Shown here piece after piece: positions 8,240 to 11,802 of a DNA stretch of 64,000 bases; the stretch's first letter is position 1, and each line of letters opens with the position of its first letter. Source of the DNA: Mycobacterium sp. BK086 (lineage in GTDB: Bacteria > Actinomycetota > Actinomycetes > Mycobacteriales > Mycobacteriaceae); assembly GCA_004362315.1 (NCBI GenBank), contig SNWL01000004.1, positions 930,001-994,000 of the forward strand. The letters are read 5' to 3'. The position numbers and the translations under genes are program-made. Below the pieces are notes generated by a model. It ran no database searches and was not told the origin of the DNA. It saw only the letters and a list, made by a program, of their open reading frames with translations.

Positions 8240-8376
8240 CGATAAAGGCTATGCGCCGGCAGATTCCTCAACTCGACTGCCCACGGGTCCGATGATCCCG
8301 CCGTTTCTTTCTGGTCATGCGAACGGCGCCGCTTGGTTGGCGAACTTGGCATTCTGCGAGGTCTAGCGTGGGCGGA

Positions 8377-8736
8377 ATGAGTTTGTTCAGTCATGCGGAG
8401 TTCCCGGATCCGGGCGACGGCGTTGGTGGTGGTGGGGCTGTTGAGCGAGCTCGGCGTGCCGAGGTAGACGAGTACGGGGTGGATGAACCCGTGGTCGTGG
8501 GACCGGGGTTGCCACCCGACGATGGTTCGTGCGGTCAGTTCGCTGTGCAATTTCACGTGTCTACGTCAATGCTGCTCGGGCTCAAACGTATTGCGGATAT
8601 GCGTGGGGTGAGCGTGCCGGAGGTATGCCGGCAGGTGATCGGCGTGTTTGTTTCCCAGCAGGAGGGTGAGCTGGGCGCATTGCTTGCTGCCGAGGCCGAG
8701 GCGGCTGATTACCGGCCTAGTTTGGGTGAGGCGTAG
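8377..8736 (+). CDS. Small hypothetical protein with RHH-like C-terminal half
   Basis: A 119-residue protein. Residues 1-60 are low-complexity and acidic (Gly/Val/Asp-rich). From ~65 it reads STSMLLGLKRIADMRGVSVP followed by EVCRQVI, the spacing of a ribbon-helix-helix DNA-binding segment (beta strand, helix, turn, helix), then an acidic Ala-rich tail. The ATG at 8377 follows GGCGGA. It faces the intein-like gene and dnaB tail-to-tail, inside a stretch that looks less GC-rich than its surroundings. It could be a small transcription factor or an antitoxin-like protein, but no partner toxin is visible. No specific family was recognised. Confidence 0.5.
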   Translation: MSLFSHAEFPDPGDGVGGGGAVERARRAEVDEYGVDEPVVVGPGLPPDDGSCGQFAVQFHVSTSMLLGLKRIADMRGVSVPEVCRQVIGVFVSQQEGELGALLAAEAEAADYRPSLGEA

Positions 8737-8952
8737 TCGGGCTGGATCGCCCAGCGGCACACTAGATTCCCTCGGGAGCGGATCTTGGGAGACCGTAACC
8801 GCGCTGCACGATGATGCTTTAATATCGCTACCCGCGGTCGCTGCATCTGCGGTCTGGAGAATCGATAATGGCCCCGGAGTACGACGCTTTTCGCGCTTTT
8901 TCGCCCAAGTGAGGCCCATAGGGTTCGCGCAGCCTCATCCGCGCGTCCGACT
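8737..8952. other. Intergenic, AT-richer, between RHH-like gene and intein-like gene
   Basis: A 216-bp gap between two convergent genes. It contains runs such as GATGATGCTTTAATATCG and CGCTTTTCGCGCTTTTTCG that are unlike the high-GC flanks. No clear hairpin terminator, tRNA or att-like repeat is visible. A 14-codon reading frame at 8868-8912, preceded by GGAGAA, is the only ORF with a start signal and is probably fortuitous. Confidence 0.4.
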
Positions 8953-10236
8953 TCAGCCAGAACGCGCGAAGATGCCCTGGACGACGATGCTGTCGGCGCC
9001 GTCGACTGCTAAGTCGTAGACATCTTGGTGTCCGATGCTCGTGATCTCCACGATTTCATCCCAGAACACGTCGCTGGTGGCGAGGTCGTGGAGTTGGCGG
9101 TCTTCGAGGACGATCGCGGTGTTGTGCAGCCGACCACGACTCGGCGCGTGCTTCCACAGCGTCGAGCCGCAGTACTTGGTATTCACAGCGGCGGCGAAGT
9201 CCCGGTGGGTCAGGTGCTTGTCAGCCAACCTGCTCTGGACGCCAGTCCATACCGATTTCGGGATGGTATCCAAATTCGTATTTCGTCGTACACCTTCGAG
9301 CTTGGCGGCTAATACCTCGGCTGCCGCGTCCTTCGCCCCATGTACACCGACATGACGCAAAAATTGCAGCTGATTCTCCGCGCCATAGACGTGCAGGTGC
9401 CATAAATCTCGATAGCCTGCCTTCTGCACACACTTGATCCGCGAGAACACCCCCACGCGAAGCAGCAGTTGCGCAACGTCGTCGATCAGTCGTCGACTGG
9501 TAGAGGCGTAGTACAACCGGCCGATCTTCGATCTCGCGTCCCAGCTGACGTGTCCGTCTGTCGCCCAGAGGTGCCGTAAGAACAGGCCGATCTGGGTGTG
9601 AAATTGCGCGAATATCTCGGTTGGAACAAACTTCTCGTAGCTCCGTTTTCCGAACAGGCCGAGCTCATCCAGCCACGCTGCGATGGGATTGCGCTTGCCG
9701 TGCGTCAAATGAAAAGGAGCAGGCAAGCGGAGCGTGGTCACCCGAGCTGCTGGATAGTCATCACGAATCGCGGTGATGCCGAAGTGCCGCGCGGCCGTAG
9801 CGACCGCTGCCAGGTTCTCCTCATCAATGCTCGCGTAGCGGATAGGTTGCCGCTTGACGCAGGATCCGTCACCGATCATGTGCGCAAGCAGAATTACCTC
9901 TGCGTCGGGCATTCGAGGCCCACCGCGTGGTTCAGGTGCCCGCCGCGCTACAGCGGCCCGATCCCCAATGGCCAACTCCCCCAACGGCAACCAACCGTCC
10001 AACGTCATGAACTGCTGCGCGCTCGTCGACGCGATTTCACGCCCCGACGCGAGTCGCAGGCGGAACACCTCTCTGCGACCGCTCAGCAGCATCTCCGACA
10101 TCGGTTGCGCCACGAGTCGCTTTCGCTGATCGAGAGTCCACACCAACGGGTGCTCACCGCTCTGCAATAGCTCGCCAAACAACACCTGACCGCCGTTGTC
10201 GGCACGTAGAATTCGTGATTCGGCGGCGAAAGGCAC
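8953..10236 (-). CDS. Freestanding DnaB-type intein homologue: Hint fold with LAGLIDADG endonuclease, splicing residues lost
   Basis: A 427-residue protein that reads as a complete mycobacterial large intein. Block A is PFAAESRILRADNG (residues 2-15), block B spans 68-82, LAGLIDADG motif 1 is LLAHMIGDG (116-124, Asp123), motif 2 is LRHLWATDG (220-228, Asp227), block F is HQDVYDLAVDG (403-413) and block G ends GIFARSG. The expected Cys1 is Pro2, the TxxH histidine is Q74, and the penultimate His and terminal Asn are Arg425 and Ser426, so splicing should be abolished while nuclease motifs remain. The GTG start lies 6 nt after the dnaB TAA, so it is probably translated from the dnaB message. Base composition looks less GC-rich than neighbours, suggesting acquisition. 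Identification as intein-derived is secure from motif order; nuclease activity is inferred. Confidence 0.85.
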   Translation of the reverse strand: MPFAAESRILRADNGGQVLFGELLQSGEHPLVWTLDQRKRLVAQPMSEMLLSGRREVFRLRLASGREIASTSAQQFMTLDGWLPLGELAIGDRAAVARRAPEPRGGPRMPDAEVILLAHMIGDGSCVKRQPIRYASIDEENLAAVATAARHFGITAIRDDYPAARVTTLRLPAPFHLTHGKRNPIAAWLDELGLFGKRSYEKFVPTEIFAQFHTQIGLFLRHLWATDGHVSWDARSKIGRLYYASTSRRLIDDVAQLLLRVGVFSRIKCVQKAGYRDLWHLHVYGAENQLQFLRHVGVHGAKDAAAEVLAAKLEGVRRNTNLDTIPKSVWTGVQSRLADKHLTHRDFAAAVNTKYCGSTLWKHAPSRGRLHNTAIVLEDRQLHDLATSDVFWDEIVEITSIGHQDVYDLAVDGADSIVVQGIFARSG

Positions 10237-10242
10237 GGTCGG

Positions 10243-11622
10243 TTACCTGGCCATGTTTGTGAACCGCGACAGATGCAGCTGATGCGCGACGGTGACTGTA
10301 CGGGTCGGTCCTGCACGGTGTTTCGCGACAATCAAGTCGGCTTCACCGCCGCGCGGGTCGTCAGTTTCGAAGGCATCGGGACGGTGCAGCAAAATCACCA
10401 TGTCCGCATCCTGTTCAATACTACCCGATTCACGTAGATCAGCTAACATTGGTTTCTTGTCGGTCCGCTGCTCTGGACCGCGGTTCAGCTGGCTCATCGC
10501 GACTACCGGGACTTCCAGCTCTTTCGCCAAAAGCTTGATCTGCCTTGAGAATTCCGAGACTTCCTGCTGCCGCGACTCGACCTTCTTGCCGGACGTCATC
10601 AGCTGCAGGTAGTCGAGAACGATCAGCCGCAGGCCGGCTTTCTGGTGCAACCGACGGGCTTTCGCGCGGATCTCCATCATCGTCAGGTTCGGCGAATCGT
10701 CGATATACAAAGGTGCTTCACTGATTTCGCTCATGCGCCGCGCCAAACGGGTCCAGTCGTCGTCGGTCATCCGGCCCGATCGCATGTCGGCAAGTTTGAT
10801 CTTCGCCTCGGCCGAGAGCAGTCGCATGACGATCTCGGACTTGCTCATTTCCAGCGAGAACACGATGCTGGGCAGCCGGTTCTTGATCGAGCAGGACCTC
10901 ATAAAATCCAGTCCCAGAGTCGATTTCCCCATACCGGGCCGCGCCGCGACCACGATCATCTGGCCCGGATGCAGCCCGTTGGTCAGCTCGTCGAGTTCGG
11001 TGAAGCCCGTCGGCACACCCTTGGAGATACCGCCCTGCGAGGCGATGGCGTCGATCTCGTCCATCGTCGGCTGCAACAGGTCTTCCAGCGGGAGGAAGTC
11101 CTCGGCGGTCCGCCGCTCGGTGACGTCGTAGATCTCCGCCTGCGCGCGGTCCACGATCTCGTTGACGTCGGCACCCTCGGCGCCGGCATAGCCGTACTGC
11201 ACGACCCGGGTGCCGGCCTCCACGAGGCGCCGCAGGAGCGCTTTCTCGGCCACGATGCCCGCGTAGTACCCGGCGTTGGCGGCCGTCGGCACCGTGGAGA
11301 TCAGGGTGTGCAGATAGGGCGCCCCGCCGATGCGCCGCAGCAGTCCCCGGCGATCCAGCTCGGCCGCCACGGTGACCGCGTCCGCGGGCTCACCGCGCCC
11401 GTAGAGGTCCAGGATCGAGTCGTAGACGTTCTGGTGTGCGGGCCGGTAGAAATCGCCCGGGCGGAGCCGCTCAAGCACGTCGGCGATCGCGTCCTTGGAC
11501 AGCAGCATGCCGCCCAGCACCGACTGCTCGGCGGCAATGTCTTGGGGAGGCTGGCGACCGAAGTCCTCCGACGGAGGAGGACTGTCCATCCCGGGCTGCC
11601 CGAGATCGTCAACGACCGCCAT
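10243..11622 (-). CDS. dnaB: Replicative DNA helicase DnaB (intein-free)
   Basis: Hexameric 5'-3' replicative helicase, 459 residues. The N-terminal DnaB domain starts at ~27 (PPQDIAAEQSVLGGMLL). The RecA-like domain carries Walker A ARPGMGKST at 227-235, then FSLEMSKSEIVMRLL, LIVLDYLQLM (Walker B) and the C-terminal GEADLIVAKHRAGPTRTVTV. Many mycobacterial dnaB genes hold one or two inteins; here the frame runs through the P-loop and the rest uninterrupted. The ATG at 11622 has GGAGG about 13 nt upstream. An intein-like gene begins 6 nt after the stop. DnaA-box-like sequences lie upstream, between dnaB and rplI. Confidence 0.97.
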   Translation of the reverse strand: MAVVDDLGQPGMDSPPPSEDFGRQPPQDIAAEQSVLGGMLLSKDAIADVLERLRPGDFYRPAHQNVYDSILDLYGRGEPADAVTVAAELDRRGLLRRIGGAPYLHTLISTVPTAANAGYYAGIVAEKALLRRLVEAGTRVVQYGYAGAEGADVNEIVDRAQAEIYDVTERRTAEDFLPLEDLLQPTMDEIDAIASQGGISKGVPTGFTELDELTNGLHPGQMIVVAARPGMGKSTLGLDFMRSCSIKNRLPSIVFSLEMSKSEIVMRLLSAEAKIKLADMRSGRMTDDDWTRLARRMSEISEAPLYIDDSPNLTMMEIRAKARRLHQKAGLRLIVLDYLQLMTSGKKVESRQQEVSEFSRQIKLLAKELEVPVVAMSQLNRGPEQRTDKKPMLADLRESGSIEQDADMVILLHRPDAFETDDPRGGEADLIVAKHRAGPTRTVTVAHQLHLSRFTNMAR

Positions 11623-11802
11623 TAGGTAATCCCCACCTCCGCCTAGATCGACCGAACGCATGTTCGATACGTAGTCGGAGGTCTACCCCATACCCCCGAC
11701 AAGTACGCGTCGCGACGATGATGACCGGCACCGCCGACGGCTCACGCTAGACGTTGCTGGAGCCCTCGCAAACCGGGCCTGTTCATCAACCTGTTAGTGG
11801 TT

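Follow-up and report, generated by a model that had tools for sequence, protein, structure and literature searches.

A free-standing gene descended from the DnaB H4-site intein behind an uninterrupted mycobacterial dnaB: a probable homing element

We describe here a free-standing gene that lies directly behind an uninterrupted dnaB in Mycobacterium sp. BK086 and that is an intein by descent but, judged by its residues, not a working one. It is found in a 64,000-nucleotide stretch of contig SNWL01000004.1 (positions 930,001 to 994,000), the whole of which is referred to as the window. Comparison with its relatives suggests that the gene is probably a homing element derived from the intein of the DnaB H4 site, one whose movement replaces the dnaB 3' end and that is a bacterial counterpart of the yeast WHO elements; cleavage of dnaB by its product is a prediction. 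The features on which the argument draws are the following:

8953-10236, minus strand: putative free-standing intein-derived LAGLIDADG endonuclease gene, 427 amino acids (from the open reading frame, Pfam and NCBIfam)
10243-11661, minus strand: dnaB, replicative helicase and presumed host gene, 472 amino acids, TAA stop
10237-10242, minus strand: six-base spacer from the dnaB stop to the GTG start
10422-10423, minus strand: H4-site junction between codon 413 (Gly, 10425-10423) and codon 414 (Ser, 10422-10420), the seat of related in-frame inteins
10387-10461, minus strand: dnaB codons 401-425, synonymously recoded around the H4 site, the proposed immune target
9940-10233, minus strand: N-terminal Hint part, residues 2-99, with Pro for Cys at position 1 and Gln for the block-B His
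9337-9903, minus strand: endonuclease domain, residues 112-300
9865-9891, minus strand: first LAGLIDADG motif, LLAHMIGDG, with Asp123
9553-9585, minus strand: second LAGLIDADG motif, LFLRHLWATDG, with Asp227
8962-9096, minus strand: C-terminal Hint part, residues 381-425; the protein ends in GIFARSG
8775-8952, minus strand: about 180 bases from the gene to the flank common to relatives, with no detectable dnaB 3' remnant

The open reading frame (ORF) at 8953-10236, for which an earlier note on this stretch gave no strand, starts with GTG at 10236-10234 and ends in TGA. The TAA of dnaB is followed by CCGACC and then by this GTG, in agreement with the six-base gap noted earlier, and the same gap is found in G093 and G004 (G and L numbers are our designations for genomes and loci). 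The adjacent dnaB is without an intein at the P-loop, as the note had said, and also at the H4 site, RESG^SIEQ; these are sites 'b' and 'a', respectively, in the DnaB intein naming given in PMC6195587. The endonuclease gene is present as a single copy in its genome. Its best matches are inteins rather than non-intein proteins: the NCBIfam model for intein-containing DnaB, PRK07773, matches the intein part of the ORF over positions 400-823 (E 6e-155, with 518 bits falling below a cut-off of 780 bits that is set for the whole protein), Pfam LAGLIDADG_3 (PF14528) matches two stretches (2.4e-25), and Pfam Intein_splicing scores 40.7 bits against a cut-off of 35.8 (2.8e-10). The earlier note had described a full intein block order here; the order stands, but the set is not full, with Pro in place of the class 1 Cys1, TSAQ in place of TxxH in block B, Arg-Ser in place of the terminal His-Asn, and Gly in place of Ser+1.

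This pattern of loss is general among the free-standing copies. Motifs were counted, and the tree described below was built, with 22 full free copies, leaving out G066 (two frames), G280, G458 and G576 (fragments) and G719 (contig end); because the 22 were chosen as full-length, decayed copies are under-counted among them. Both catalytic Asp residues are present in all 22, whereas 21 copies have lost Cys1, 20 the block-B His and 21 the terminal Asn. Among 40 in-frame copies the converse is seen, with Cys1, the block-B Thr and His, the terminal His-Asn and Ser+1 invariant (40/40) and the first and second catalytic Asp lost in one and two copies, respectively. The endonuclease part has a median pairwise dN/dS of 0.06-0.11 in four groups of free copies versus 0.13 in-frame, and the N-terminal Hint part 0.22-0.33 versus 0.12, although these values are rough because synonymous sites are near saturation. 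They come from 19 of the 22 free copies (not L033, L065 or L105) and from 120 sampled pairs among 36 of the 40 in-frame rows (not L038, L048, L049 or L065). Within the clade of the window's gene, the 429-residue frames are open in all five members. Two in-frame copies, L038 (G057) and that of L065 (G654), have a decayed or largely deleted endonuclease with their splicing residues intact.

The free copies descend from in-frame inteins, and did so more than once. They are nested inside the tree of in-frame H4-site DnaB inteins, from which L065_IF was left out; the tree needs five changes of state, at least three of which are forced by starred branches, and a single free clade is rejected (AU test, p-AU 0.0085). 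The window's gene belongs to a clade of G000, G093, G004, G322 and G293 with support of 100/100. The earlier note had raised escape from an in-frame position as one possibility, and this is now well supported by the tree and by two relatives. The free intein of Nocardia jejuensis retains Cys1, TGSH and HN, and is preceded by codons of an N-extein, DLRKSG (GAT CTT CGC AAG TCG GGG), which resembles the common DLRESG codons; at that place the dnaB of the same genome has GAT TTG CGC GAA AGT GGA, and the free intein seems to stand near the start of the escape process. In G576 a truncated intein runs in one frame into dnaB residues 412-472 (L066:3994-4950), 8 kb behind a whole intein-free dnaB on the same strand.

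The free-standing form of the DnaB intein is real and recurrent. In the genus, a match at E<=1e-40 is found in 117 of 396 genomes, and 19 of these carry an intein-like gene outside the dnaB frame, including decayed copies in G066, G280 and G054. All 19 loci were inspected; the remaining 98 genomes look in-frame by open-frame length or locus inspection, with copies in uninspected loci called from open-frame length alone. A sample of 401 genomes from the family adds 31 matching genomes in other genera, eight of which have a free copy or fragment (G668, G644, G577, G692, G654, G458, G719 and G576); the copy in G719 is interrupted by a contig end, and G654 (L065) has a diverged in-frame intein plus a free copy in opposite orientation behind dnaB. 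Outside the family, none of the 33 matching genomes in an order-wide sample of 298 looks free by open-frame length. In a named collection, two of the 80 loci kept from 373 relatives are free-standing, and these, from Mycobacterium sp. URHB0044 and Nocardia jejuensis, are already counted as G389 and G668. The full free copies are oriented as dnaB in 20 of 22 cases and oppositely in two; 19 lie within about 0.53 kb of the dnaB end and the other three 2.4-4.8 kb behind it. Relatives G043 and G184 share the downstream flank without the gene.

Among mobile elements, eight phage records match, all at about 30% identity or less, and five plasmid records, one a Nocardia farcinica replicon at 63% and the others at 22-30%; searches of viral contigs gave no confirmed relative and PHROGs gave none. 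Among the papers listed by searches of open-licence PMC, judged mostly from titles and abstract openings, we found no report of free-standing DnaB inteins in bacteria, and the form is unreported in those searches. A relative 67% identical to the window protein lies on a contig titled as an Acidobacteria metagenome-assembled genome (L113), perhaps a mis-binned mycobacterial contig. Several free-gene relatives (L031, L040, L041, L051 and L052) have an insert in dnaB at the P-loop site, where the window's dnaB has none.

One recent exchange of a cassette comprising the dnaB 3' end and the free gene has taken place, in relatives rather than in the window. G180 and G221, which carry free genes (INT), and G114, with an in-frame intein, are mostly 90-99% alike upstream of dnaB, although a segment of about 0.75 kb diverges to the same degree in every comparison. 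As far as the insertion junction G180 resembles G114, with no codon differences over 337-396, three after that (397, 400 and 408) and many from 413. Its affinity is with G221 in a tract that begins near codon 409, takes in the rest of dnaB and the spacer, and ends at INT residue 297; G180 and G221 differ there by two codons of dnaB and by a few INT codons ahead of residue 98. Synonymous differences between G180 and G221 number 7/354 over dnaB 400-472 and INT 2-300, versus 36/135 over dnaB 252-399 (p 1e-15), and G180 differs from G114 at 15/135 before codon 400 and at 28/70 from there on (p 3e-6), with the change point at codon 413, the insertion junction. The window's clade has the reverse pattern, which is likewise local: its INT genes form an island of divergence, with 69-79% DNA identity against mostly 84-96% in the flanks on either side, and dnaB codons 401-425 are more divergent than both neighbouring codon windows in seven of ten pairs.

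Change points were tested in 17 pairs, some of them sharing genomes, whose identity over codons 252-375 is 93.5% or more. Among pairs with a free gene, six of eight are significant (p<0.01), at codons 401, 401, 401, 410, 413 and 413. All three intein-free pairs are significant too, at 356, 370 and 431.

Displaced 3' ends of dnaB are present behind some of the free copies. G066 and G366 have a second dnaB C-terminus directly behind a free or decayed copy, with scores of 581 and 569 versus shuffle maxima of 185 and 171; in G366 dnaB also has an in-frame intein, which is followed by the decayed copy and then the dnaB fragment. Overall, 11 of 26 loci exceed their own shuffle maximum, seven with matches that start at most 10 bases from the INT end (G066, G366, G316, G221, G180, G049 and G692) and four with matches elsewhere in the segment (L053, L031, L054 and L063). 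This shuffle test is lenient, as each locus was given 30 mononucleotide shuffles that were compared with a sixth of the panel, and therefore only G066 and G366 are beyond doubt in it. In Nocardia farcinica, a dnaB C-terminal remnant (L183:5334-5429), which was not counted, lies roughly 1 kb behind a dnaB that bears an intein; the interval between them shows no clear trace of an endonuclease.

An enzyme that cuts dnaB would have to spare the allele beside it, and self-immunity through synonymous recoding is plausible from the codons at the site. The window reads CCA ATG TTA GCT GAT CTA CGT GAA TCG GGT^AGT ATT GAA CAG, where a common form elsewhere is CCG ATG CTG GCC GAC CTT CGC GAG TCG GG^. In the window's species group, five genomes with the free gene differ from ten intein-free genomes with the ordinary site at a proportion of 0.57 of the synonymous codons within 401-425, compared with 0.20-0.46 in other codon windows, and the same ten differ among themselves at 0.31 in codons 401-425; both contrasts lean on the choice of sample, because the ten were picked by their site and three recoded intein-free genomes were set apart. 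More widely, 16 of 24 free-gene genomes have codons 402-412 that fall beyond the 95% range of the in-frame alleles. TTA at codon 406 occurs in 7/24 free, 5/38 intein-free and 1/38 in-frame genomes (TTA makes up 0.3-1.4% of Leu codons at codons 252-391), Ile415 in 11/24, 23/38 and 0/38, and an AGY codon for Ser412 in 9/24, 4/38 and 0/38. For these counts the intein-free alleles were hand-picked, about half near the window's dnaB and the rest for spread; L057 (cut locus), L046 and L066 (no N side in the locus) were dropped, L032 and L034 were replaced by L105 and L090 from the same genomes, L002, L003 and L039 were not used (L040 and L041 cover the genomes of L002 and L003), and L065 and L060, with an in-frame plus a free or decayed copy, were kept apart. 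Several intein-free dnaB alleles without the gene (L072, L076, L077, L088 and L091) share much of the window's recoded patch, which may be due to loss of the element or to a patch that travelled on its own.

The earlier note had also proposed a homing endonuclease that targets dnaB alleles, and this is the best functional reading, with the endonuclease kept, the splicing residues lost and the cassette edge at the insertion site. The arrangement would have arisen, as the relatives support, when the 3' end of an intein-free dnaB was joined in front of an in-frame intein, turning N-INT-C into N-C*-INT-C', which would have restored an uninterrupted dnaB and stranded the intein downstream as a gene of its own. 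Freed from the need to splice, the intein gene would have lost its splicing residues while selection retained the endonuclease. The enzyme would then cut dnaB alleles at the H4 site, and repair from the donor would copy the donor dnaB 3' end together with the endonuclease gene, pushing the recipient's old dnaB 3' end downstream to decay there. The donor dnaB would presumably escape cutting through a site that differs in its DNA with the protein little changed or unchanged. It is also possible, although we hold this only tentatively, that such an element acts as a gene drive in which the endonuclease is the poison and silent recoding of the adjacent essential gene the antidote. The antidote patch could then also travel by itself, to which the intein-free genomes that carry it point, and could influence how dnaB is exchanged between species.

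Several observations weigh against this proposal. Of 38 intein-free genomes that lack the gene, 14 are recoded as well, and of 24 genomes with it, 8 show no recoding. When phylogeny is controlled for, comparison of free with intein-free genomes gives 2.0 pairs for and 1.4 against an association (8 pairs), and that of free genomes with all others gives 4.1 for and 0.8 against (11 pairs, median p 0.25); a link between gene and recoding is thus unsupported by this test, and the plain codon tests, such as that of Ser412 AGY, are therefore not independent evidence. In G180 the N-side codons are canonical, and any resistance there would therefore have to lie on the C side. No displaced dnaB 3' end is detectable in the window (168 versus a shuffle maximum of 198), and the origin of displaced ends from the recipient has a mixed result, with the G066 fragment closer to G366 dnaB (0.931) than to that of G066 itself (0.897) and the G366 fragment nearest to its own dnaB (0.927). 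Two of the free copies sit on long branches that are able to pull on the tree test. Finally, among pairs with in-frame inteins, two of six have significant change points (p<0.01), both at codon 406 and so at the site, as ordinary homing would give.

This last observation, together with the recoded patches in genomes without the gene, raises the question of whether the free gene is a passenger, with the cassette exchange and site patches due to ordinary homologous recombination or to homing of in-frame inteins. G101, in which a patch at codons 400-425 is unlike its own flanks, with native sequence on both sides, and the free gene lies 4.8 kb away, could be explained in the same way. However, the tract shared by G180 and G221 is continuous from dnaB into the gene, and the dnaB end and the gene moved together; moreover, all of the significant change points in free-gene pairs fall at 401-413, and those of intein-free pairs lie elsewhere, although the pairs are few and share genomes. 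We therefore consider the passenger explanation unlikely, but one that deserves some weight.

That the gene is a functionless relic, expelled from dnaB and now decaying, is quite unlikely. The splicing residues are indeed gone, and some free copies have decayed (frameshifted or truncated in G066, G280, G458 and G576, with an internal stop in G054), which also counts against the homing reading. Decay of a relic should be even, yet the splicing part decays faster, and the full copies have both catalytic Asp residues, low endonuclease dN/dS and, in the window's clade, open frames throughout. A domesticated function, whether as a DNA-binding regulator of dnaB or as a host nuclease that benefits the cell, would be in keeping with the purifying selection and with the six-base spacing in the window, G093 and G004, which suggests co-expression, but it is very unlikely for a gene that is patchy, is absent from G043 and G184 despite their common flank, has been exchanged horizontally in G180 and G221, forms an island of divergence in the window's clade, and varies in its distance from dnaB and in its orientation; the regulator suggested by the earlier note finds no positive support. 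The immediate adjacency to the former host gene might also point to continued processing of DnaB by a split or trans-acting intein, or to an assembly error that excised an in-frame intein. Both are scarcely credible and are refuted as far as sequence can do so: dnaB is uninterrupted, all but one of the full copies are without Cys1 and all but one without the terminal Asn, and an assembly error is unlikely because the same arrangement recurs in many other assemblies.

In these copies the two halves of an intein have been separated naturally, with splicing kept in frame and the endonuclease kept when free. The finding suggests that bacteria, too, can take the route proposed in yeast for the WHO elements and HO, that it can be taken repeatedly, and that an essential replication gene can be the host. 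It also makes testable how a free homing enzyme lives with its uninterrupted target, and would explain short mosaic patches in dnaB.

Elsewhere in the window, a 139-amino-acid ORF at 8317-8736 on the plus strand is convergent with the endonuclease gene and lies in the flanking DNA common to relatives with and without the gene. A 714-amino-acid ORF at 398-2542, also on the plus strand, resembles by eye the A subunit of a type II topoisomerase.

One of the closest known systems is the in-frame mycobacterial H4-site DnaB intein itself (Msm DnaBi2 and Mtu DnaBi, class 1; PMC6195587), with which the window gene shares homology over its whole length, the endonuclease motifs and the host gene; it differs in lying outside dnaB and in being without Cys1, the block-B His and the terminal Asn. 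Its two motifs, each with a catalytic Asp (Asp123 and Asp227), are those of a LAGLIDADG homing endonuclease. The Arthrobacter FB24 intein pseudogene Arth_1007, as presented in PMC3196547, was likewise once annotated as DnaB, is non-splicing and is missing the block-B His, but it is class 3-like with short flanking exteins and is reported to be an inactive pseudogene. The free-standing homing endonucleases of phage T4, whose intronless homing is described in PMC2988022, also involve a free gene, co-conversion of flanks and a cleavage site away from the gene; however, they are phage GIY-YIG or HNH enzymes, whereas the window gene encodes a LAGLIDADG protein of a bacterial chromosome with a Hint remnant, derived from an intein of the very gene it adjoins. 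The HO endonuclease of yeast is free-standing and of intein descent (PMC7282813, which also covers the WHO elements), but has been domesticated for mating-type switching, and no host role is seen for the window gene.

The closest parallel is with the WHO elements of yeast, in which, according to PMC7282813, an intein-derived endonuclease gene lies behind the whole host gene FBA1, homing is proposed to replace the 3' end of the host gene, with displaced 3' fragments lying behind, self-immunity comes from allele differences and the two host-gene ends differ in history; allele-specific cleavage is reported for Who6. The window likewise has a free intein-derived endonuclease gene behind an uninterrupted host gene. 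Exchange of the host 3' end together with the gene is seen in its relatives G180 and G221, the window having an island of divergence only, and a displaced host 3' fragment is clear in G066, G366 and G576 but not detectable in the window. The host is dnaB rather than FBA1, the source is a bacterial DnaB H4-site intein, the free form arose more than once, and cleavage is here a prediction. Pfam finds no zinc finger above threshold in the window protein (zf-C2H2_REST at 17.8 bits against a cut-off of 27). Because of this, and of the other intein, the other host gene and the lack of a displaced 3' end in the window, we do not class the element as a member of the WHO family; by analogy, however, it may work like one.

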